From NCBI RefSeq assembly GCF_001597735.1, contig NZ_LUTS01000004.1:62001-126000 (forward strand): a DNA stretch of 64,000 nucleotides. The letters run 5' to 3'. Below are positions 1 to 14,472 of the stretch, in pieces (position 1 is the first letter of the stretch; the number at the start of each line of letters is the position of its first letter). Both the position numbers and the translations under genes were made by a program. The notes below the pieces were generated by a model. It worked only from the letters and a program-made list of their open reading frames with translations, was not told the DNA's origin and searched no databases. Source of the stretch: Neptuniibacter pectenicola (GTDB lineage: Bacteria; Pseudomonadota; Gammaproteobacteria; Pseudomonadales; Balneatricaceae).

Positions 1-414
1 AAGCTTATTCCCGTTGTTATTAACTGCATAGTAAAGCAAGAGCCTATTCCTATTTATGGAAAAGGAGACCAGCAACGTAATTGGTTACATGTGGATGATC
101 ATGTCAGTGCGCTTTATTGCGTGCTTACACAAGGCGATGTGGGACAAATTTATAATATAGGTTCAGAGGATGAACTGAAGAACATAGACCTTGTAAAACG
201 CGTGTGTCGAATATCTGCATCACTGTTGAAGGCAGAGATCGACGATGTCCTTAAATTAATTACACATGTTGATGATCGCCAAGGGCATGATTTCCGTTAT
301 GCTTTGTCCAGTGAAAAAATAAAAAATGCGTTAGGCTGGGAGCCCACCATTAGTTTTGATGCAGGCCTTGCTCAAACCATTGAGTGGTATCTTGCATATT
401 ATGATGAGCGATAA
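1..414 (+). CDS. rmlB: dTDP-glucose 4,6-dehydratase, 3' part (RmlB)
   Basis: C-terminal 137 codons of RmlB, cut by the window edge; the frame is open from base 1 to the TAA at 412-414. RmlB converts dTDP-glucose to dTDP-4-keto-6-deoxyglucose, the shared precursor of dTDP-deoxysugars. The start carries the family's conserved PIYGKGDQQRNWLHVDDH stretch, followed by a GQIYNIGS segment and a C-terminal GWEPTISFDAGLAQTIEWY tail. The catalytic Tyr-x-x-x-Lys and NAD-binding parts lie outside the window. rmlA follows after 26 bases, which supports a shared dTDP-sugar operon. An RffG-type paralogue cannot be excluded from the fragment. Confidence 0.93.
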   Translation, partial: KLIPVVINCIVKQEPIPIYGKGDQQRNWLHVDDHVSALYCVLTQGDVGQIYNIGSEDELKNIDLVKRVCRISASLLKAEIDDVLKLITHVDDRQGHDFRYALSSEKIKNALGWEPTISFDAGLAQTIEWYLAYYDER

Positions 415-440: not shown

Positions 441-1322
441 ATGAAGGCTATTTTATTGGCAGGGGGGTTAGGATCGCGTTTATTTCCTGCAACTAAAAAT
501 ATATCAAAGCAGTTACTACCCATCTATGATAAACCGATGGTTTATTACCCGCTATCGTTGCTCATGTTGGCGGAAATTCGCGACGTTCTTATTATTACCT
601 CACCTGAGGATAAGCATAGTTTTGTGAGTATGCTTGGCGATGGTAGTCATTTAGGTATGCGATTGGAATATGCGGTTCAAGAAACCCCAAACGGTATAGC
701 TAAAGCCTTTGAGATCGGAGCCGATTTTATAGGCAATAGTAATGTATGCTTAGTGCTAGGCGATAATTTATTTTATGGTCATACGCTCAAGCCTTTAATG
801 CTGCAAGCTAAAACTGTTCAGCATGGCGCGACTGTATTTGGTTATAAAGTACCAGATCCAGAAAGGTATGGGGTTGTGGCATTTGATCAGTCCTGTAATG
901 CAGTGTCGATTGAGGAAAAGCCGATTGATCCTAAATCAAACTTTGCAGTGACGGGGTTATATTTTTACGATCAAAATGTTGTCAGTATTGCTCAACAAAT
1001 AAGCCCTTCTGCTCGAGGGGAATATGAAATAACGTCTATTAATCAAGCTTACTTACAGGCAGGTGCATTACGAGTAGAGTTATTAGGCGACGATGTGTCT
1101 TGGTTTGATGCGGGTACCCATGAAAGTTTACTCGCGGCAACTAATTTTGTGGCAGACGAACAGCGTGATGAATGTAAAATCATAGCAAGCCTTGAAACGA
1201 TAGCTTTCCAAAATAATTGGATAACAAGAGGTGACTTGCTATCCCTTGCTGATAGTTATCCCCAGAGTACTTATAGTCAGTACCTCAAAGAAATTGCCTT
1301 GAATGAAATATCAGTATTATAA
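441..1322 (+). CDS. rmlA: Glucose-1-phosphate thymidylyltransferase (RmlA)
   Basis: RmlA joins glucose-1-phosphate and dTTP to dTDP-glucose, the first step of dTDP-sugar synthesis. The 293-residue protein has the usual family length. The nucleotidyltransferase signature LAGGLGSRLFPAT is near residues 6-18, followed by KQLLPIYDKPMVYYPLS; LVLGDNLFYG supplies the metal-binding Asp and EKP lies mid-protein. The last 20 bases overlap the start of the aminotransferase gene, so translation is probably coupled. With rmlB upstream it would supply dTDP-4-keto-6-deoxyglucose to the enzymes downstream. RffH is the main alternative name. Confidence 0.95.
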   Translation: MKAILLAGGLGSRLFPATKNISKQLLPIYDKPMVYYPLSLLMLAEIRDVLIITSPEDKHSFVSMLGDGSHLGMRLEYAVQETPNGIAKAFEIGADFIGNSNVCLVLGDNLFYGHTLKPLMLQAKTVQHGATVFGYKVPDPERYGVVAFDQSCNAVSIEEKPIDPKSNFAVTGLYFYDQNVVSIAQQISPSARGEYEITSINQAYLQAGALRVELLGDDVSWFDAGTHESLLAATNFVADEQRDECKIIASLETIAFQNNWITRGDLLSLADSYPQSTYSQYLKEIALNEISVL

Positions 1323-2439
1323 GCCTGCGATTCTTAATCACACGAAGCTTATTCAATATATTGAAGGCATCAACGATCGTCGATGTTTTACTAATAACGG
1401 CCCGCTTGTTCGAGAATTAAAAGAGCGCCTCGAAGCATACTTAGGTGTAAAAAATCTATTACTTGTTTCAAGTGGGACGGTTGCATTACAGGTCGCTTAT
1501 AAAGCGTTAGGGTTAAAAGGTAAGATTATTACAACGCCTCTTAGCTTTGTTGCAACAGCTAGCGCATATAAATGGCTGAATCAAAACCTTTGTTTTGCCG
1601 ATATAGATCTAGATACGCTTAATCTAGATCCTAGCGGTGTTACCAAGCATACCTTTCTTAGCTGTGATGATGCTGTTGTTGCCACTCACTTGTACGGTAA
1701 CCCTTGTGATATTGCTTCTTTTAAGCGACTTTCTCTGCGTTTTGAGAATAAAACCATTTATGATGCTTCTCATGCGTTTGCAACACGTTATGGCGGGAAA
1801 AGTGTGCTATCTGAAGGCGATGCTTCAGTGATTAGTTTTCATGCCACAAAGCTCTTTCATACCATTGAAGGTGGGGGAATTGTTTTTGCATCCAATGAAG
1901 ATTACAAACGTGCCGAAAAGATGGTTAATTTTGGTTTTGACCATCAAGGTCAGGTAATGGAGGTTGGCATTAATGCAAAAATGAGTGAGCTCCATGCTGC
2001 TGTTGGCCTCACGGTGTTAGATGATATTGAATTAATGGTTGATCAGCGTTGTGAAATGGTGGAGCACTATTTAACGTGCTTGGCGTCCTATGGTATAGCG
2101 TTTCCAAAACGGCAAGAAGGCGTTGATCGATATTCGCCTAGTTATATGCCTCTGATATTGGAGAGTCCAAAAGAGCGTGACCTTTTATGTAATATGTTGC
2201 GTGCGGAGGGTATTGAGACACGCAAGTATTTTGAGGGTTTACTCCATAAACAGACCGCTTTTACCCGTTTGTCGGTTAACTTGCCTAAGGCTGAGATAAT
2301 CGAGAATAGGCTGCTTTGCTTGCCGTTGTATATGGACCTCAAAAAAGCTGATATTACTTATATATGTGAACAGGTTGTGGTGATACTAAATAAAATTAGG
2401 CAAAAACGGCTAGCCGAGAAAACGTGTAAGGGCCTTTGA
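1303..2439 (+). CDS. DegT/DnrJ/EryC1/StrS-family sugar aminotransferase (VioA-like)
   Basis: PLP-dependent aminotransferase of nucleotide-sugar synthesis, 378 residues. The N-terminal FTNNGPLVRELKERL, the PLP-phosphate region around SSGTVALQ, the Asp of YDASHAFA and the Schiff-base lysine K183 in SFHATKLFHT are all present, followed by the family motif GINAKMSELHAA. Next to rmlB and rmlA, the natural substrate is dTDP-4-keto-6-deoxyglucose, giving dTDP-4-amino-4,6-dideoxyglucose (viosamine) or its galacto epimer. Family and cofactor site are seen; the exact product is inferred. The ATG lies inside the rmlA 3' end. Regions around 1700-2100 contain only shadow frames. Confidence 0.9.
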   Translation: MKYQYYKPAILNHTKLIQYIEGINDRRCFTNNGPLVRELKERLEAYLGVKNLLLVSSGTVALQVAYKALGLKGKIITTPLSFVATASAYKWLNQNLCFADIDLDTLNLDPSGVTKHTFLSCDDAVVATHLYGNPCDIASFKRLSLRFENKTIYDASHAFATRYGGKSVLSEGDASVISFHATKLFHTIEGGGIVFASNEDYKRAEKMVNFGFDHQGQVMEVGINAKMSELHAAVGLTVLDDIELMVDQRCEMVEHYLTCLASYGIAFPKRQEGVDRYSPSYMPLILESPKERDLLCNMLRAEGIETRKYFEGLLHKQTAFTRLSVNLPKAEIIENRLLCLPLYMDLKKADITYICEQVVVILNKIRQKRLAEKTCKGL

Positions 2440-2475: not shown

Positions 2476-3528
2476 ATGCTTAATATAGTTGTTGTCGGCC
2501 CCGGCTTGATGGGAAAACAGCATATAGAAAGGATTGAGGCGACATCGGGTATGGTGTTGTCTGCGGTGGTTGCTCCAGCGTCCTCAGTGAATCGCGATTA
2601 TGTGGCTAGGCTGAACGTTCCTATGTTTAGTGACTTAGGCCGTTGTATCGAATTTCAGAAGCCTGACGGGGTTATTATTGCTAGCCCGAATAAGTTTCAC
2701 ACAGAGCAAGCAATCGTATGTATAAAACATGACATTCCGGTATTGATAGAGAAACCTTTATCGACCTGCCTTAAAGAGGGTAGGCGTATTGTGGATTTTG
2801 CTAAAGAAAGGGACTTTGTTCATAAAGTGATGGTTGGGCATCACCGTGCTTATAGTCCATTGATTCAACATGCGTGTCGAATTATTGAAAGCGGACGTGT
2901 AGGTAGTCTTGTGACTGTGCAAGGTAGTGCTCAGTTTTATAAGCCTGAGTATTACTTTGTAGAAGGGGAGTGGCGTACACGTCTTGGTGGCGGTCCAATA
3001 TTGATCAATATGATCCATGAGGTTGGTAACCTACGTAAACTCATTGGTGAAATAGAATCGGTTCAAGTCATTAGCTCTTCAGAAAGAAGAGGTTATGAGG
3101 TCGAAGATACAGCAGTGATGAATTTCCGTTTTGAAAATGGAGTCCTTGGGTCATTTGTACTATCTGATACGGCGGCGTCAACTCAAAGCTGGGAATTAAC
3201 ATCAGCCGAAAATCCAAGTTATCCACATTATGCGGAAGAGAATTGTTACTCAATATCAGGGACATTAGGGACACTTGATATCCCTACTATGAATATTAAA
3301 GCTTATGCCTCTTCTGATACGGCTTCTTGGATGGAAGCTTTTGATGAATATGATGCTCCTGTGGATCGACAAGATCCCTTGTTACTACAGTTAGAACATT
3401 TTAAACAGATGCTAAATGGCGATGAAGGTCCAGTCGTTTCTGTTTGGGATGGCTATTGTAATTTAGCGGTTGTTGAGGCGATCAAACAGGCTGAAGAAAG
3501 TGGTTGTCTTGAGCGAGTGGTATATTAA
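2476..3528 (+). CDS. Gfo/Idh/MocA-family oxidoreductase
   Basis: NAD(P)-dependent sugar dehydrogenase-like protein of 350 residues. The N-terminal Rossmann motif VVVGPGLMGKQH (residues 5-16) binds the dinucleotide, and the family signature EKPLST begins at residue 92. The C-terminal half is an alpha/beta substrate domain (Gfo_Idh_MocA_C) with HHRAYSP and an INMIHEVGNLRKLIG stretch whose His lies where catalytic residues occur in relatives. It starts 36 bases after the aminotransferase and its stop is 2 bases from the next start. In amino-sugar clusters such enzymes oxidise or reduce the ring or an acyl substituent; the substrate is unknown. Confidence 0.88.
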   Translation: MLNIVVVGPGLMGKQHIERIEATSGMVLSAVVAPASSVNRDYVARLNVPMFSDLGRCIEFQKPDGVIIASPNKFHTEQAIVCIKHDIPVLIEKPLSTCLKEGRRIVDFAKERDFVHKVMVGHHRAYSPLIQHACRIIESGRVGSLVTVQGSAQFYKPEYYFVEGEWRTRLGGGPILINMIHEVGNLRKLIGEIESVQVISSSERRGYEVEDTAVMNFRFENGVLGSFVLSDTAASTQSWELTSAENPSYPHYAEENCYSISGTLGTLDIPTMNIKAYASSDTASWMEAFDEYDAPVDRQDPLLLQLEHFKQMLNGDEGPVVSVWDGYCNLAVVEAIKQAEESGCLERVVY

Positions 3529-3530
3529 AT

Positions 3531-4676
3531 ATGTCTCAGAAAGTACTTTTAGTTGATACGGGGTTTTCTTCGCAGCCAATTTACCAATCAATACTTGATT
3601 TAGGTTATGACGTTCACGTGGTGGGTGGGCGACCCGATGATGCGTTGGCTAGAATTGCAGAGCAATATTGGTGTCTAGACTATTCCGATACCGATAAGCT
3701 ATCAGAGCTAATCAAGCAAGAAAATTATCAATATATAGTGCCTGGGTGTACTGATCGTTCTTATACTTCATGTTCTGTGGTCGGGGGGGATGGCGCTTCT
3801 CAAGGCATCGAACCACCAGAAAATGACGCAACGATTAATTTAAAACACTGCTTTAGACGTTTGTGTAAAGATTTGCGTATATCAATTCCGGAGGTGGTTA
3901 CCCAATTTCAGCACCACGTCTTTCCACTAATAGTGAAACCAGTAGATGGCTATAGCGGAAACGGTATTTCTATTGTCGACAGAACAGAGAAAATGGAAGA
4001 GGCAATTGCGCTAGCTACATTGGCGTCTCCCACCCAGCGCTATGTATGCGAACAATACATAAAGGGGCAGCTCTTCAGTCATTCTGCTTTTTTAGGACAG
4101 GGGCGGGTCGTACAGGACTTTATTGTTCAGGAAGACTCCACGGTTTCCCCTTTTGCTGTTGATCTGAGTTTTGTGATTCATGATTATCCTAAAAAATATT
4201 TAGACCACCTGAGAGAATCGGTAGAAAAAATAGCAGAATATCTTGGTTTGCAGGATGGTTTGGTACATACACAGTTTATTCAATCAGGTGATCAGCTCTA
4301 TCTGATTGAAATGACACGACGTTGCCCTGGGGACTTGTATAGCCAGTTAATTGAACTTCAGACTGGATTTCCTTATGTGGAAAATTATGTAAGGCCTTTT
4401 CTTGGCATGGAGCTTAATATTGCCCCTTTGAGTAGTGAGCCGCATTTTGTAATAAGGCATACAGTCTCTGCTAGCCAAGGGCAGGTTTTTACTGGGTTAA
4501 AGTTTAGTGATGATTTTAATCTCGATCGGTGGGTGCCATTGGCTGTTGCGGGGGATTGGTTAGATGAAGGGCCTCGAGGTCGAGCGGGTATTGTGTTTAT
4601 TGGTTGTAAAGATAATGATGACCTGAAAAGTACCTATAGCAAGTTTAGTGAACGAAAGGCGTATCAAATGCTCTGA
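3531..4676 (+). CDS. ATP-grasp domain ligase
   Basis: A 381-residue ATP-grasp enzyme. Residues 1-100 form the pre-ATP-grasp Rossmann-like domain (KVLLVDTGFSSQPIYQSI). ATP-binding Lys136 sits in PLIVKPVDGYSGNG, and the Mg-ATP site near Glu260 reads YLIEMTRRCPGDLY. The family makes amide or thioester bonds through an acyl phosphate (carbamoyl-phosphate synthetase, D-Ala-D-Ala ligase, PurK). In this sugar cluster it might attach an amino acid or carboxylic acid to the amino sugar, which is inference. It is translationally close to the upstream oxidoreductase. A 172-base gap follows in which I see no convincing terminator or promoter. Confidence 0.85.
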   Translation: MSQKVLLVDTGFSSQPIYQSILDLGYDVHVVGGRPDDALARIAEQYWCLDYSDTDKLSELIKQENYQYIVPGCTDRSYTSCSVVGGDGASQGIEPPENDATINLKHCFRRLCKDLRISIPEVVTQFQHHVFPLIVKPVDGYSGNGISIVDRTEKMEEAIALATLASPTQRYVCEQYIKGQLFSHSAFLGQGRVVQDFIVQEDSTVSPFAVDLSFVIHDYPKKYLDHLRESVEKIAEYLGLQDGLVHTQFIQSGDQLYLIEMTRRCPGDLYSQLIELQTGFPYVENYVRPFLGMELNIAPLSSEPHFVIRHTVSASQGQVFTGLKFSDDFNLDRWVPLAVAGDWLDEGPRGRAGIVFIGCKDNDDLKSTYSKFSERKAYQML

Positions 4677-4848: not shown

Positions 4849-7131
4849 ATGTTACTCTCCATTATTGTTCCAACATATAATCGTGCTGATCGCTTGTGTG
4901 CCGTAATTCAAGCTTACTTGAATCATATCGCCGATGCCTTGGGGGGTGAACAGTGTTTTGAGTTGATTCTGGTGAATGATGGATCAACGGATAGTACCGC
5001 TTCTCGAATAGAGCAGTTGAGTGAATATGAATCAGCGATTATTTCAGTCAATTTATCGACTAATCAAGGTCCTGGATTAGCAAGAGACCAGGGTTTAAAG
5101 GTAGCTAGCGGTAAATGGGTTTGGTTTTTAGATGATGATGATCAGCTTCTCAAAGGTTCGCTCCATGCCTTGCTAGACCTCCTTTTAAACGTATCTGAAA
5201 GCACCACAACCATTGCACACTCTCTGAAGCAAAATTATTCAAAAAATAAATGTGGAGGCAATATAAGCTTTGGGCTTATATCAAATGTTCTGAACTATCA
5301 GGAGCAGCAAGAAGTTTTTAACTTTGTTATTAAGCGCCAGATAATATTGGATAATAATATAAAGTTTAGTTCGGGAGTACATGAAGATATTCGTTATGTT
5401 TTTGATGTGCTTCGGTTCAGCTCTTCGATTACCGTTCTGGAAGAAAAGGTTGTTGAGAAAAAGTGCTCGGATGATTCTATAACATTGGGGATGAGCACTC
5501 GGCGTATATCCGGGTATTTGAATGCGGTAGCAGAGGTGGTTCTCAATCTTGAGCTGTTGCATTTAAAAAGTGGTATGGAGTCATTAAGCCTTAACTCTAT
5601 TTTGACCCAAACCATAGGTGTTATTCTCTATCAAATTGATAAAGAAAAGACTCAAAATGTAAGGGTTAGCTTATATCGATTTCTGGGAAAGGCTCTAAGG
5701 TCCAAAAATTTTTCTGCCTTGATGCTAGACGAATTGAGTCTAATCCGAGATGAGCCTCGAAGGGCTAGTACAACTAACTTCAAATTAGCAACGTGCATTT
5801 TTTTGGAGTATATAAATACTCTGTCGCCACAATGGAGTAAGGTCGATACCTCGATTAAAGATGTTTATGCGAGTAGGTTATCGTGTCGTGATTTGGACAA
5901 GTCTATCTTCCTTGGGCCTAATGAAATTCGGGCTTGCTGTAAGCGCTTTTATTTTCGGGGTAAAAGGGAGGGGGATGTTGTACTTCTTAAGTCAAACTCG
6001 GATGTTACGTTTGAAGATGTCCAAAATGCTAAGTCGGATCTGCTGTCAAAGATTAATAGTGGTGAGCCTAATTCCTGTGATGGATGCCCATACCTTGAGC
6101 GTAGAACGGTTGAGAACGAGCGCATTAATTACATTTCATTAGAGAACTTTTCATATTGCAACATGCGCTGTGATTACTGCTCTCCAAAGTATTATGGTGG
6201 CAGCGAATCGAGCTACTCAGCGTTGGGTATGGTTAAAAATCTTATGCGTGATGAATCTTTATTAGATGAGCGCTGTCAGGTGGTTTGGGGGGGCGGTGAG
6301 CCAACGCTTAGTCCTATCTTTAAAGATGTAAACAGACAGTTAGTTAGTAGCGATAAAATACAAAAAATCCGAGTTTTGACAAATAGCCTGAAATTCTCAG
6401 AAGAGTTATTTAGCCTTTTGGAAGATCCCCGCGTTCATATTGTGACAAGTATTGATGCTGGCAGTGAAGCAATATTCCGTAGTATACGAGGGCGCGGAAC
6501 GATTAATGCTGTCTTGGATAATTTGCAAAAATATCAACAGGCAATGAGTGATATTCGTCGCCTCACCATAAAATATATAGTCCGCTCTGATAACTGTAGT
6601 AGTAGTGAGCTTGAAAATTTTGTTGCAAAAATAGTGAGTCAAAATCTGATTGGGTCCGTTTTTCAGATTAGTTGTGATTTTCAGCTTAATCGGGCAGGCA
6701 TGGATGTGATTAAGGGGATTTATGAACTTTCAACACGCCTGTTGAGTGCTGAAGCTCATGTGGTCGTTTTTGATGATTTAATAAGAGACCGGGTTTCAGT
6801 GAATAAAGCCCAGCTGCACGAAATAACGCGGCATTTGGATTCCTTAGGTTTGAATAACCGTTTTTTAGTGAGCGCGGATCATCCTCAAGAGGTTGTACTG
6901 TGGGGAGTAGGTCTACAGTCTGAATGGTATCAGAATCATACGACAGCGGGCGACGCAGGGCTGTTGGATGCTGCTGTATATAATCAAGATGATCTGACAA
7001 AACTAGGAAGTGAATTTCTTAAGAACGAAGCGCTAATCCTCCCCTGTGGAGTGCAAAGCTTATATGAAATCCTTCAGAATATTGAGACAGGAGGACTTTC
7101 ATCAAGACTGGCGCGAGTCGTTATTGCATGA
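4849..7131 (+). CDS. Glycosyltransferase family 2 - radical SAM fusion protein
   Basis: A 760-residue bifunctional protein. The N-terminus is a GT-A fold family 2 glycosyltransferase: LSIIVPTYNRADRL at residues 3-16, NDGSTDST, then an acidic DDDD at 95-98 as the DxD-type metal site. A helical middle section has no motif I recognise. A Cys pair (CDGC, 410-413) precedes a radical SAM core with CxxxCxxC at C437, C441 and C444 (YCNMRCDYC) and the GGE motif near 481-484. I chose the ATG at 4849 because GT2 proteins begin just before SIIVPTYNR; a TTG at 4819 would add ten residues. A tandem transferase and radical modifier of a glycan or peptide is likely, but the substrate is unknown. Confidence 0.82.
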   Translation: MLLSIIVPTYNRADRLCAVIQAYLNHIADALGGEQCFELILVNDGSTDSTASRIEQLSEYESAIISVNLSTNQGPGLARDQGLKVASGKWVWFLDDDDQLLKGSLHALLDLLLNVSESTTTIAHSLKQNYSKNKCGGNISFGLISNVLNYQEQQEVFNFVIKRQIILDNNIKFSSGVHEDIRYVFDVLRFSSSITVLEEKVVEKKCSDDSITLGMSTRRISGYLNAVAEVVLNLELLHLKSGMESLSLNSILTQTIGVILYQIDKEKTQNVRVSLYRFLGKALRSKNFSALMLDELSLIRDEPRRASTTNFKLATCIFLEYINTLSPQWSKVDTSIKDVYASRLSCRDLDKSIFLGPNEIRACCKRFYFRGKREGDVVLLKSNSDVTFEDVQNAKSDLLSKINSGEPNSCDGCPYLERRTVENERINYISLENFSYCNMRCDYCSPKYYGGSESSYSALGMVKNLMRDESLLDERCQVVWGGGEPTLSPIFKDVNRQLVSSDKIQKIRVLTNSLKFSEELFSLLEDPRVHIVTSIDAGSEAIFRSIRGRGTINAVLDNLQKYQQAMSDIRRLTIKYIVRSDNCSSSELENFVAKIVSQNLIGSVFQISCDFQLNRAGMDVIKGIYELSTRLLSAEAHVVVFDDLIRDRVSVNKAQLHEITRHLDSLGLNNRFLVSADHPQEVVLWGVGLQSEWYQNHTTAGDAGLLDAAVYNQDDLTKLGSEFLKNEALILPCGVQSLYEILQNIETGGLSSRLARVVIA

Positions 7132-7180
7132 TAGTTAATATATTATTTTTTAGCCGTGACTTTTCAGGTACGCATCACTC

Positions 7181-8230
7181 ATGAAGTTATTAGTATTTCC
7201 AACAGACTGTGAAGCAAATACTGAGTTATATGTACTCCTGGAGAGGCTAGGTATACCTGTGGTGGGGGCGAGCTCAACCAAAGGGCAGAATTTTCTAGGG
7301 AAGCATACATTCCCGCTTCCATACATTACCGCTGATGGATTTCTGGAAAAAATTAAGCTTTTAGTCTGTGAACATGAAATTACGCATTTCCACACATCTC
7401 ATGCGGGAGTTTGGGGGGTGTTAAAGGGGCTTGTAGAGAGCAATGAACTTTCTCAAGAGGTTACTCTTTGCTCAGAGTTTCCTTTTGATGCTGAGTGGTT
7501 AAGATTCGAGAAATATGCGTTTTGGGCTAAAGCATTTTTACGGCATCAACATCTTTCCGGTAGTCACTGCACCTTGAGAGAGGATGAGTTGGCGGCTTTA
7601 TGTAAACAATATAATGAAATCCCTGGACAGTGTGACAATCATAAATTGGAATCATTAATTTCAATTGCACCAAAAGTCCCAGTAGGGGATTGGGTTGAAA
7701 TTGGCTCCCTGTATGGGCGTTCATCTTTTGCTCTGGGCTTTCTTGCCCAGCATTTCTGTCAAGCCAGCCTTATCTGTGTTGACCCATGGGACTCAGTTGA
7801 GGTTTTAGGGCAGAAGGGGAAGGCTGAAATATTGGATAAGCAAGGGGCCCAGATTGATTACAGTAAGATTTTTAAAATTTTTCAATCGTCAATCGGGTTG
7901 TTGAGAAATGTAAGTTATATAAAAGCGTTGTCAAAGGACGGAATTAAACGCTACTTGAAATCTGATTTGGATGGGTCGCCCGTAAATATTGATAAGGAGA
8001 TTGCATTTTTACATATAGATGGTAACCACCACTTCGATGAGGTGAGTAAAGACATTGCTCTGTGGGAACCTCACGTATGTGTAGAGGGTTGGGTCGCAAT
8101 CGATGATTACCTTTGGGCTTTTGGGGATGGGCCTAAGAGGGCTGGAGACCTGCTTCTAGCAAGTAAGCGCTTTGACCTAGCTTTTGTTATGGGTGACACC
8201 TTATATATGAGGAAGTCACAAAAAGAGTAA
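7181..8230 (+). CDS. SAM-dependent methyltransferase with an ATP-grasp-type N-terminal domain
   Basis: A 349-residue protein in two parts. The C-terminal half is a class I methyltransferase of the Methyltransf_24/cephalosporin-hydroxylase-like group: motif I is VEIGSLYGRSS around E173, an acidic ribose-binding Asp sits in LICVDPWDS near 202, and HIDGNHHFDEVSKDI contains D280. Residues 1-110 (MKLLVFPTDCEANTELYVLL) look like the pre-ATP-grasp domain of the ligase two genes upstream, but no ATP-grasp core follows. It closes the sugar cluster, so O- or N-methylation of a glycan is a reasonable guess. The domain split is seen; the substrate is inferred. Confidence 0.8.
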   Translation: MKLLVFPTDCEANTELYVLLERLGIPVVGASSTKGQNFLGKHTFPLPYITADGFLEKIKLLVCEHEITHFHTSHAGVWGVLKGLVESNELSQEVTLCSEFPFDAEWLRFEKYAFWAKAFLRHQHLSGSHCTLREDELAALCKQYNEIPGQCDNHKLESLISIAPKVPVGDWVEIGSLYGRSSFALGFLAQHFCQASLICVDPWDSVEVLGQKGKAEILDKQGAQIDYSKIFKIFQSSIGLLRNVSYIKALSKDGIKRYLKSDLDGSPVNIDKEIAFLHIDGNHHFDEVSKDIALWEPHVCVEGWVAIDDYLWAFGDGPKRAGDLLLASKRFDLAFVMGDTLYMRKSQKE

Positions 8231-8342: not shown

Positions 8343-9791
8343 ATGGCTGCCCAGCCCCAACTATTAATTATTGATGATGACCTAAGCCGCAGGGAGTTGA
8401 TCTCCGCTGCGCTTTCCTTCTTAGGTCGCCCTTTCAAATTTTATGGCTTTGTTGACTGGTTGCAGTCGGATGATCAAGCGTTGAGTGGCGATATCGTTTC
8501 TTTGGTGTTGCTTGGGCAGAGTCAATTACCGATCTCGTTGGAAAAGTTATTACGGAACCTACAGCAGAAGACCCCTTATGCGGCGGTGGTGACGTTGGGG
8601 GAATGGTCAGAAGTTGCTGAACTATCAGATGATTTGAAAAACTGCGTAACCGGGCAGCTAACGGTTCCGTTTAGCTATCAACAGCTGCTTGATCAGCTGC
8701 ACAAAGCGCAGTTGTATACCCAGCACTCGCTGGGTGGCGAAAACGCAAGTCAAGTGAATTCACGGTTATTCTCTAGTTTAGTGGGCACCAGTAGGCCGAT
8801 GAGGCTTGTTCGCCAAGCGATGTCCCAAGTCGCAGGGCGTGATGTTAATGTGTTGATTACCGGTGAATCGGGGACGGGCAAAGAGGTCGTTGCCCGTAAT
8901 TTGCATGATTATTCTGTGCGTAAGGGCGGGCCATTTGTGCCTATTAACTGCGGTGCAATCCCTGCGGACCTTTTGGAAAGTGAACTGTTCGGCCATGAGC
9001 GGGGTGCGTTTACGGGGGCGATTTCTAGTCGTGCTGGACGATTTGAGTTGGCCCAAGGGGGAACGCTTTTTCTTGATGAGATAGGGGATATGCCTTTATC
9101 TATGCAGGTTAAGTTGCTGCGTGTCCTTCAGGAACGAAAGTTTGAGCGCATCGGGGGGACCAAAACCCTTGATGCGGATATTCGTGTGATTGCCGCTACA
9201 CATAAAAATCTTGAGGATATGATAGAGGCGGGCACTTTTCGTGAGGATCTCTACTATCGACTCAACGTTTTCCCTATTGAAATGCCACCGTTAAGGGAAC
9301 GCACAGAAGATATTCCATTATTACTTGAGGAGTTATTGGGTCGTTTAAAAACTCAGGGCTTTGACTCCGTACGATTTCAAGCCAGTGCTCTAGACTCGTT
9401 GAAGGCCCACCCTTGGCCGGGCAATGTACGTGAACTCTCAAACCTTACTGAGCGACTTGCGATTCTCTTCCCTAATGGGATTGTGGGTGTATCAGAGCTG
9501 CCCAAACGTTTTCAGCATATCGAGGAACCTGATCCAGCACGATACAGTGATGCCAAGGCCGTTGAAGAGCAAACTAATCAAAATAGTATGGCGGCTGGGC
9601 TCGCCCCGCTTGATCGCTTACCCGAAGAGGGGTTAGACCTTAAAGCTCACTTAGAGGCGATTGAACGGGCATTGATTGAGCAGTCATTGGCGGTACATGA
9701 CGGGGTTGTTGCTAGAGCGGCTGAACTGTTAAATATTCGGCGAACGACGCTCGTAGAAAAAATGCGTAAATATGGGATGCAGCGTAAGTAA
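8343..9791 (+). CDS. fleQ: Sigma-54-dependent flagellar master regulator FleQ
   Basis: Enhancer-binding protein that activates class II flagellar promoters with sigma-54 and, in Pseudomonas, responds to c-di-GMP and FleN. Domains: FleQ receiver-like N-terminus (1-120), AAA+ core with Walker A GESGTGKE and the sigma-54 contact loop GAFTGA, and a Fis-type HTH at the C-terminus ([14 protein letters not shown]). At 482 residues it matches P. aeruginosa FleQ closely. The linker reads LFSSLVGTS where P. aeruginosa has LFRSLVGTS, so residue 144 is Ser, not Arg (see findings). The ATG at 8343 is preceded by AGGA. fleS follows immediately. Confidence 0.96.
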
Positions 9792-12420: not shown

Positions 12421-12519
12421 ATATTTAACCTCGTTTGCGTCTGATAATAAAAAAATACGGAAAACATAGACGATCTGAGGGTATTTGATAATTACAACAA
12501 TCAAGCTAAGGGCATCACG

Positions 12520-14472
12520 ATGAGTGAAAAAATATATCCAGTTAGTCCGGAGATTGCGGCGCAGGCGCACATTGATAATGATAAATATTTAGCAATGTAT
12601 GAGCAGTCTGTAACTGATCCCGACACATTCTGGGGTGAAGCAGGTAAACGCCTAGATTGGTTCAAACCATATACTAAAGTAAAAAATACATCGTTCGATC
12701 CACATAATGTTGATATTCGTTGGTTCGAAGACGGTACATTGAATGCATCTTATAACTGCCTAGATCGTCATCTTGAAACACGCGGTGATCAGGTTGCTAT
12801 CATTTGGGAAGGCGACGACCCAAGTGAGTCCGAAAATATCACGTATCGCCAATTACATGAACGTGTTTGTAAATTCTCAAATGCGCTAAAAGCACGCGGT
12901 GTTAAAAAAGGCGATGTTGTAACGCTTTACATGCCAATGATCCCTGAAGCTGCTGTTGCTATGCTTGCATGTACGCGTATTGGTGCGGTGCACTCAATCG
13001 TATTTGGTGGCTTCTCACCAGAAGCACTTGCAGCGCGTATCGAAGGTGCGGATTCCCGCGTTGTTGTTACGTCAAACTATTCACTACGTGCAGGTAAATC
13101 TGTACCGCTTAAAGCCAATGTTGATAAAGCATTAGAGCATGAAGCAGCGAAAGAGCGCGTTGAAAGCGTTATCGTTGTTAATCGTGTCGATAAAGACGTT
13201 GCTTGGAATGACAAAGTCGACGTTTGGTATGAAGACCTTGTAGCGGATGCGTCTGCTGAGTGTGCACCTGAAGAGATGGAAGCCGAAGCGCCCATGTTTA
13301 TCCTTTACACATCAGGTTCTACTGGTGCGCCAAAAGGTCTTGAGCATACAACAGGCGGTTACATGGTTTACGCGTCTATGACGCATGAGTATGCCTTTGA
13401 CTATAAAGATGGCGATATCTACTGGTGTACTGCCGATGTAGGTTGGGTTACAGGCCACAGTTACATCGTGTATGGACCGCTTGCTAACGGCGGCACATCC
13501 TTGATGTTTGAAGGTGTTCCAAGCTACCCAGATAACAGCCGTTTTGGTCGTGTTATTGAAAAGCATAAAGTTAACCAGTTCTACACTGCGCCAACCGCTA
13601 TTCGTGCGTTGATGCAGCAAGGTGAAGATGTTCTGGGTGATTCAGACCTATCTTCATTGCGTATTTTAGGGTCTGTAGGTGAGCCAATTAACCCAGAAGC
13701 GTGGGAATGGTATTACCGTGTTATCGGTCAGAGCCGTTGCCCTATCGTTGATACATGGTGGCAGACTGAAACGGGTGGCATGATGATCTTGCCTCTACCT
13801 GGTGCGACTGCGGCTAAGCCGGGTGCTGCTTCTCGTCCATTCTTTGGTGTTCAGCCTGCATTGCTTGATGCGGATGGTAAAGAGCTTGATGGTGCTACAG
13901 ATGGTAACTTGGTCATTAAAGATTCATGGCCGGGTCAGAGTCGTTCTATCTGGGGCGATCATGAGCGCTTTATTCAGACCTACTTCACTACGTATAAAGG
14001 CTACTACACTACGGGTGATGGCGCGCGTCGTGATGAAGATGGCTATTACTGGATTACGGGTCGTGTAGATGACGTGATTAACGTATCGGGTCACCGTATG
14101 GGTACAGCTGAGGTTGAATCAGCACTTGTGGCGCACCCTGCTGTAGCTGAAGCTGCGGTTGTAGGTTATCCGCATGAAGTTAAAGGCCAAGGTATCTACG
14201 TATACGTGACGTTACAGTCCGGCTTTGAGCAGTCTGATGAACTACTAAAAGAACTGCGTATGCATGTTCGTTCAGAGATTGGTCCGATTGCGTCTCCTGA
14301 CTTGATTCAGTTTGCACCTGGTATGCCTAAAACACGTTCAGGTAAAATCATGCGTCGTATCTTGCGTAAGATTGCCGAAGACGATTTTGATGCACTAGGT
14401 GATACGTCAACGCTTGCTGATCCATCTGTTGTAGATGATCTAATCAACAACCGTATGAACCGTTCTAAATAA
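12520..14472 (+). CDS. acs: Acetyl-CoA synthetase
   Basis: AMP-forming acetate:CoA ligase, which scavenges acetate into acetyl-CoA. The 650-residue protein has the standard Acs length and domains: ACAS_N at the start, the AMP-binding motif [19 protein letters not shown], the YYTTGD hinge region, [13 protein letters not shown], and the C-terminal [11 protein letters not shown] containing the lysine that is reversibly acetylated in the family. The ATG has AAGG upstream. Codon choice looks smoother and more uniform than in the flagellar genes, in keeping with high expression. A strong hairpin terminator follows. The neighbouring crbR and crbS genes are known regulators of acs in Vibrio and Pseudomonas. 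Confidence 0.97.

Follow-up and report, generated by a model that had tools for sequence, protein, structure and literature searches.

The 64,000-nucleotide stretch of Neptuniibacter pectenicola DNA analysed here (the window) carries at 4849-7131, on the + strand, a single open reading frame (ORF) for a protein in which a family 2 glycosyltransferase (GT2) is joined to a radical S-adenosylmethionine (SAM) enzyme, and this GT2-radical SAM gene sits in a flagellin-glycosylation island. The fusion is real: the frame runs through 760 residues with one terminal stop and no internal stop, and the order GT2 then radical SAM is common to 14 distinct sequences including that of the window, four from chromosomes and ten from IMG/VR viral contigs. 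We propose a two-activity enzyme of the flagellin glycan, which would transfer an N-acylated 4-amino-4,6-dideoxyhexose and, through its radical domain, alter a C-H position of the sugar or of its acyl group; the reaction and the substrate are those that we infer, and we give the proposal about an even chance. Transfer of a sugar and its radical tailoring may be united in one chain. Relatives built alike lie beside flagellum genes in some bacteria and in genomes classed as viruses of bacteria, which hints at unusual chemistry on the sugar decorations of surface proteins.

The original prediction had described one 760-residue chain with a GT2 motif and a DDDD at 95-98, followed by a radical SAM core with C437, C441, C444 and a GGE near 484, and all of this was borne out by the translation and by Pfam (residue numbers are those of this protein throughout). 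The GT-A-type GT2 domain spans residues 1 to about 330 (4849..5838, +) and belongs to its family by a Glycos_transf_2 (PF00535) match at 4-113 of 88.0 bits against a cut-off of 23.3, the motif SIIVPTYNR forming residues 4-12. The radical SAM core, residues 426-650 (6124..6798, +), is placed in its superfamily by Radical_SAM (PF04055) at 436-566, with 49.2 bits against a cut-off of 29.5; it includes GGGEP at 481-485, with E484 within, and C609. In the 14-row alignment D95, D97 and D98 (DxDD), H178, E179 and D180 of the GT2 half are invariant, as are C346, C363, C364, C410, C413, C437, C441, C444 and E484 of the radical SAM half, and the eight candidate Fe-S cysteines are kept in all 14 sequences. 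Initiation at an upstream TTG is possible and would give 770 residues; the start sites of the relatives agree with the ATG at 4849.

Between the two catalytic regions lies an N-terminal twitch-like cysteine region, residues 331-425 (5839..6123, +). An extra cysteine pair, C410/C413, had been predicted there and is present, but "pair" was too narrow a term, as C346 and C363/C364 join both residues in a broader set, unchanged in all 14 sequences. The resulting order, C-x16-CC-x45-CxxC ahead of CxxxCxxC, places five cysteines in an auxiliary region where model confidence is partly low, and we take it to resemble a twitch half-domain, here placed N-terminally. Extra cysteines beside the radical SAM core are likewise implied by the name of NF033640 (N-terminal twitch radical SAM), whose cysteines lie N-terminal to the core. 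The scores for this model are far under its cut-off of 170, namely 40.9 bits for the full chain of the window and 42.2 for its radical SAM half, 47.7 for the viral relative L028 and 41.6 for L064, with no match at E 1e-5 for the Aquabacterium relative; the matches begin at profile position 101-104. Indeed, all matches to NCBIfam radical SAM models fall far under cut-off, including that to prokaryotic viperin (35.1 bits against 180). Since the PADLOC pVip match (40.9 bits over 435-596) coincides with the radical SAM core and is generic to such enzymes, a viperin-like defence function was rejected. Membership of the SPASM subgroup was ruled out as well, the protein giving no Pfam match to PF13186 at E values up to 1. 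C476 was discarded as a functional cysteine, being Cys solely in the window and Aquabacterium sequences, and C733, the one tail cysteine checked, is not conserved. The original prediction had missed a C-terminal segment, residues 681-760 (6889..7128, +), which gives no Pfam match, is built of strands that alternate with helices in each of the two models, contains G686 and G688 invariant in 14/14, and may be Rossmann-like in type.

Both domains are predicted to fold, with AlphaFold2 models matching GT-A and radical SAM structures. The full chain, modelled with nine relatives, reached a mean predicted local distance difference test score (pLDDT) of 80.8 and a predicted template modelling score (pTM) of 0.63, and the radical SAM half 79.5 and 0.82. 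The best 50 matches of the full model in the PDB by Foldseek are GT-A-type, led by RmlT, TarS and TarP (best E 5.9e-12), and the highest target TM-score among those 50 is 0.67 (5hea). RmlT, TarS and TarP, the top solved-structure matches of the GT2 half, use wall teichoic acid acceptors and are not known to carry a radical SAM domain. With a best E of 1.9e-7, the matches of the radical SAM half include SuiB, SkfB, RlmN, DesII, BlsE, anSME, MoaA and viperin, and a profile search of PDB sequences with this half placed MoaA first, also at E 1.9e-7. Membership of the radical SAM superfamily is firm, the type of reaction being a weaker call.

Strong matches to the fusion were obtained in 12 viral contigs, one identical ORF occurring in three of them, which leaves the ten distinct viral sequences. 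An Aquabacterium metagenome-assembled genome (locus L005, protein P0002) encodes a fusion of 755 residues, 44.5% identical over the whole chain (343/770 aligned columns), and two further chromosomes, G831 and G965, carry fusions of 770 residues and of 786 residues counted from an inner start. L063, whose sequence begins inside the GT2 domain at the stored 5' edge, was kept among the 14 and left out of the GT2 tree. Contigs repeating those already counted (L049-L055, L060, L061, L077-L084, L086, L087) were set apart, as were short or weak matches (L029; L065-L076; L089-L093; 18 genomes of the phylum sample with the radical SAM core only). A missed stop or frameshift joining two genes, or an assembly joint, was checked for and is excluded, because 13 other single-frame sequences exist and residues are invariant in both halves.

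The fusion is rare. Some match at E 1e-3 was present in 89 of the 116 genomes of the bacterium's own family, but of the matches listed none except that of the window extends over both domains. At E 1e-15 the radical SAM half matched a single genome of the 369 in the class sample, that of the window itself. The phylum sample gave 20 matches among 398 genomes at E 1e-10, the relatives being G000 and G831 and the other 18 matching the core alone (best E 1.2e-14). For G831, at E 1e-25, one of 369 genomes of its class sample (itself) and two of 196 in its family matched. At a threshold of E 1e-3 the radical SAM half matched nothing in the collections of phages and plasmids, it not being established whether these hold WD0613, a published fusion considered below, and as DNA this half found nothing in E. 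coli genomes. With full-length queries, no record among the matches listed covers 80% of the query, and the rows start in the GT2 half.

A single branch divides both the GT2 tree (13 rows) and the radical SAM tree (14 rows), with support of 100/100 and 100/99, respectively, as would be expected if both halves had stayed together. It separates clade 1, comprising the window, Aquabacterium and five viral sequences, from clade 2, formed by G831, G965 and the remaining viral sequences. Roots were set at midpoints for drawing only, the trees disagree in some of their inner branches, part of which are weakly supported, and in the GT2 tree the program marked the branch of G831 as long. On the simplest reading, these trees suggest that the fusion arose once, long ago, and later passed between phages and chromosomes.

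The island around the gene reads fliC, flaG, fliD, fliS, a tetratricopeptide repeat (TPR)-GT41 protein, rmlB, rmlA, degT, gfo, ATP-grasp, GT2-radical SAM, methyltransferase, fleQ-like, fleS and fleR, of which flaG, fleS and fleR were named by eye and fliC, fliD, fliS, the GT41 gene and the full rmlB lie in L003. The latter (L003:17407-18414) starts before the window, which holds its 3' end at 91..414 (+), encoding dTDP-glucose 4,6-dehydratase (by Pfam on the full ORF and, for the fragment, by TIGR01181 as top model with 104.5 bits). It is followed on the + strand by rmlA for glucose-1-phosphate thymidylyltransferase (441..1322; TIGR01207, 411.5 bits against a cut-off of 360.65), a DegT-type sugar aminotransferase (1303..2439; PF01041, 246.6 bits), whose best PDB chain is 2po3 (DesI, listed as '4-dehydrase', E 1.6e-50), a Gfo/Idh/MocA sugar oxidoreductase (2476..3528; PF01408, PF22725) and an ATP-grasp enzyme, probably a carboxylate-amine ligase (3531..4676; PF13535, 42.2 bits). 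The PDB sequence relatives of this ligase are 4dim and the L-amino acid ligase 3vot, and it is 39-41% identical to homologues in the viral contigs L026-L028. Downstream of the fusion lie a SAM-dependent methyltransferase of the Methyltransf_24 type (7181..8230, +; PF13578, 56.1 bits), 30% identical over 330 amino acids to one adjoining the GT2-radical SAM gene of L064, and a fleQ-like flagellar regulator (8343..9791, +; PF06490 FleQ, 54.3 bits), which bounds the island. From rmlA to the methyltransferase the G+C content is 0.40-0.43, against 0.468 for window positions 8343-64000, a shift that is weak evidence of transfer because the upstream segment from fliC to fliS is likewise low (0.43-0.46).

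Similar settings surround two of the three other chromosomal fusions. In the Aquabacterium locus the fusion is accompanied by DegT, Gfo/Idh and ATP-grasp genes, a GT41 gene and two flagellin genes. Around the fusion of G831 are three flagellin-like ORFs, of which the two run against Pfam both matched, together with Maf, DegT, ATP-grasp, an AMP-binding enzyme and an FkbM methyltransferase, and a Gfo/Idh gene stands about 10 kb away. Flagellin genes thus lie near the fusion in three of the four chromosomes. G965 carries DegT, Gfo/Idh, ATP-grasp and other GT2-like ORFs.

The sugar-biosynthesis context makes action of both conserved domains on one glycan the natural reading, one of the two that the original prediction had offered, and the setting can now be narrowed to a flagellin-glycosylation island. 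In the pathway that we propose, RmlA and RmlB, both of established families, would yield dTDP-4-keto-6-deoxyglucose, which the DegT enzyme, judging from its nearest relatives, would turn into a dTDP-4-amino-4,6-dideoxyhexose. The ATP-grasp enzyme would then acylate the amine with an amino acid or another carboxylic acid, and the Gfo/Idh enzyme and the methyltransferase might adjust the sugar. The GT2 half would add this sugar to a glycan begun on flagellin, in the cytoplasm, by the GT41-type transferase. The radical SAM half, whose N-terminal cysteines may bind a second Fe-S cluster, would abstract one hydrogen from the sugar or the acyl group, leading either to an epimer, with the hydrogen returned, perhaps by C609, or to an oxidised product, with an electron passed to the second cluster. 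The role of C609 as hydrogen donor is kept only as an idea, because three of the 14 sequences have V, F or G in its place, the other 11 having Cys.

Beyond this variability of C609, several observations weigh against the proposal. The DegT protein of the window has TIGR04427 PLP_DesI as its best NCBIfam model, at 236.7 bits, far under the cut-off of 650. Its Gfo/Idh protein is only distantly related (23-25%) to those of the viral contigs. No flagellin was seen within 18 kb of the fusion in G965. The CxxxCxxC loop (435-455) has pLDDT values below 50 in the full model, as have residues 1-17, 35-42 and 78-91 in the model of the radical SAM half, and the target TM-scores of this half (0.34-0.60 in the best 50 rows) are modest and spread over many radical SAM enzymes. 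Finally, ATP-grasp, DegT and Gfo/Idh genes occur together in L111-L114, where the sequence covered shows no fusion, and L113 lies in a flagellin locus. This implies that the core sugar can be made without radical chemistry, which seems to have been added to a pathway complete in itself.

A different division of labour would have the radical SAM half act, in a DesII-like manner, on the free nucleotide sugar before transfer, the GT2 half merely following. DesII acts on TDP-4-amino-4,6-dideoxyglucose, a kind of substrate that RmlA, RmlB and the PLP_DesI-like DegT enzyme could supply, and DesII appears among the PDB matches together with BlsE, a cytosylglucuronate decarboxylase. However, SuiB, SkfB and RlmN stand above DesII in the fold search, the NCBIfam scores are as low as stated, and a DesII-type deamination would remove the amine thought to be needed by the ATP-grasp ligase; we consider this sequence of events rather unlikely. 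The same fold search, in which the first matches are the peptide-modifying SuiB and SkfB, with anSME and ChlB lower, could point instead to a radical modification of the protein that receives the sugar, be it flagellin or a tail protein of a phage, with the GT2 half glycosylating that same protein. The nearness of flagellin genes in the three chromosomes and of tail genes in L061, L064, L085 and L088 would agree with such a target. Nevertheless, the superfamily fold does not distinguish peptide from sugar substrates, the 13 assessable loci also hold enzymes that make small-molecule sugars or activate acyl groups, and neither a precursor peptide nor a leader-binding domain came to notice, no dedicated search for either having been made, so that a protein substrate appears distinctly unlikely to us.

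The glycan itself might belong to a cell-surface polysaccharide rather than to flagellin, as could fit the other GT2-like ORFs and the flagellin-free 18 kb of G965 and the ORFs of PHROG glycosyltransferase families in L027 and L028, a type of gene read in pelagimyophages as modifying the host O-chain (PMC7029224); with flagellin and other flagellar genes beside the fusion in the window, Aquabacterium and G831, we find this improbable. That the fusion is a sequencing error or has no functional meaning could be argued from its rarity, the window's own genome being the only one of 369 in the class sample. Against 14 single-frame sequences with invariant catalytic-type residues in both halves, and one branch dividing both trees, the error version is already refuted, and what is left of this explanation is extremely improbable.

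Chemical precedent for the proposed two-activity enzyme exists in the twitch-type radical SAM epimerases and dehydrogenases of aminoglycoside pathways. To our knowledge, HygY, NeoN and BtrN act on small antibiotic substrates and lack a fused glycosyltransferase. The chemistry of these epimerases and dehydrogenase on aminoglycoside precursors is of the kind proposed here; HygY is named a twitch epimerase with one decisive cysteine in a title cited by PMC10991966, which also mentions NeoN and BtrN. The closest described parallel to the island appears to be the viosamine island of Pseudomonas syringae (VioA, VioB, VioT, VioM, VioR), which likewise combines an aminotransferase, a methyltransferase and a dedicated transferase. 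Its flagellin glycan ends in viosamine, a 4-amino-4,6-dideoxyglucose that is N-acylated and O-methylated; VioT depends on the correct acyl group, and the listed genes point to an acyl carrier protein/ketoacyl route for that group, unlike the ATP-grasp enzyme found here (PMC3927599). VioT (1,173 amino acids) is listed there as a transferase, whereas the transferase of the window bears a radical SAM domain. The island may be of the viosamine type, in which genes for dTDP-4-amino-4,6-dideoxyglucose adjoin flagellin genes: rmlA is over its cut-off, rmlB is present and DegT is under the PLP_DesI cut-off.

The domain order had been called unknown, which holds for characterised enzymes and for GT2 only, since WD0613 (UC3), of the Undecim Cluster of Wolbachia and phage WO, is reported to have an N-terminal glycosyltransferase and a C-terminal radical SAM domain in one chain (PMC9203015). 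It shares with the fusion studied here the order of the halves and carriage on mobile elements. WD0613 is described as having a group-1 (ExpE7-like) transferase and SPASM near its C-terminus (PMC4701759), and this published description sets it apart from the GT2 domain, extra cysteines ahead of the core and missing SPASM match seen here. The GT2-radical SAM protein may be a fusion independent of WD0613, the two being compared by description and not by sequence. No product name fitting UC3 was found among the phage WO records KX522565 (65/65 features) and HQ906662 (58/63 features). In the open-licence PMC literature searched we found neither a characterised GT2-radical SAM enzyme or fusion nor a radical SAM step in flagellin glycosylation or this cassette; one paper names both radical SAM chemistry and flagellin glycans, but separately. 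Glycosyltransferase-radical SAM fusion as such was already known from WD0613, from which the present protein differs in both halves.

The same fusion and related partners in viral contigs, adjoining tail-fibre genes in one, suggest that phages and bacteria share a glycan, which may play a part in how phages recognise their hosts. Pelagimyophages are reported to have a variable cluster for host recognition that includes glycosyltransferases, and two of these phages are distinguished by cassettes described as 'related to radical SAM' (PMC7029224). We tentatively consider, as a rather unlikely extension, a mobile radical-glycan cassette of the fusion, Gfo/Idh and a carboxylate-activating ligase that would move between chromosomes and phages, the tailored sugar ending on flagellin in bacteria and, in phages, on tail fibres or on the flagellum or envelope of the host. 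A carboxylate-activating enzyme lies nearby in 13 of the 14 loci (ATP-grasp in nine, AMP-binding in four) and a close-type Gfo/Idh in 12, that of the window being on another branch and L063 not assessable in either case; many of these partner assignments are BLAST matches to Pfam-tested relatives.

In clade-1 contigs a short DegT-like gene comes first, then the fusion, then Gfo/Idh and lastly ATP-grasp. The short DegT-like proteins of 209-214 amino acids (L026:5964-6593, L027:7369-7998, L028:7296-7940) are 73-79% identical across these contigs, whereas the fusions next to them reach 56-61%, and Pfam covers only residues 7-80 of the one examined. In L026 a class-II 3-deoxy-D-arabino-heptulosonate 7-phosphate (DAHP) synthase (6596-7924; PF01474, 523.5 bits) stands directly upstream of the fusion, after the DegT-like gene. 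In L061 the cassette is followed by an ErpA-type Fe-S insertion protein (12476-12799, over the TIGR00049 and PRK13623 cut-offs), which could serve the Fe-S enzyme of the phage, one more ORF and a protein with tail-fibre matches. The clade-2 contigs L062, L064, L085 and L088 hold the fusion together with Gfo/Idh, an AMP-binding enzyme and a hexapeptide-type transferase (Pfam was run on that of L088 alone). All four have a relative of the L064 methyltransferase, and the first three an HMW1C-like GT41 protein. An RmlB over the TIGR01181 cut-off (372.7 against 365.1) and a DegT fragment adjoin the cassette of L064. Endolysin or tail matches were obtained in L063, L064, L085 and L088, and the viral status of L026, L027, L028, L058 and L062 rests on IMG/VR because the few ORFs examined there gave no virion or lysis match.

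A viral scan with a single ATP-grasp protein sequence found no relative, and one with an ATP-grasp alignment gave seven contigs, all carriers of the clade-1 fusion (five distinct sequences, some of them in the query). At E 1e-40 the ATP-grasp family matched seven of the 398 phylum-sample genomes, two of which have the fusion; the other five are the genomes of L111-L114 and of L115. The window's Gfo/Idh is 46% identical to that adjoining the ATP-grasp gene in L111, and L112 holds separate GT2-like and radical SAM genes. The DegT proteins of L111, L113 and L114 are 64-69% identical to that of Aquabacterium, and that of L112 is 26% identical to its nearest. In L115 (228-4698, genome G651), ATP-grasp, GT2, DegT and radical SAM are encoded by four consecutive genes of their own, the two activities being unfused.

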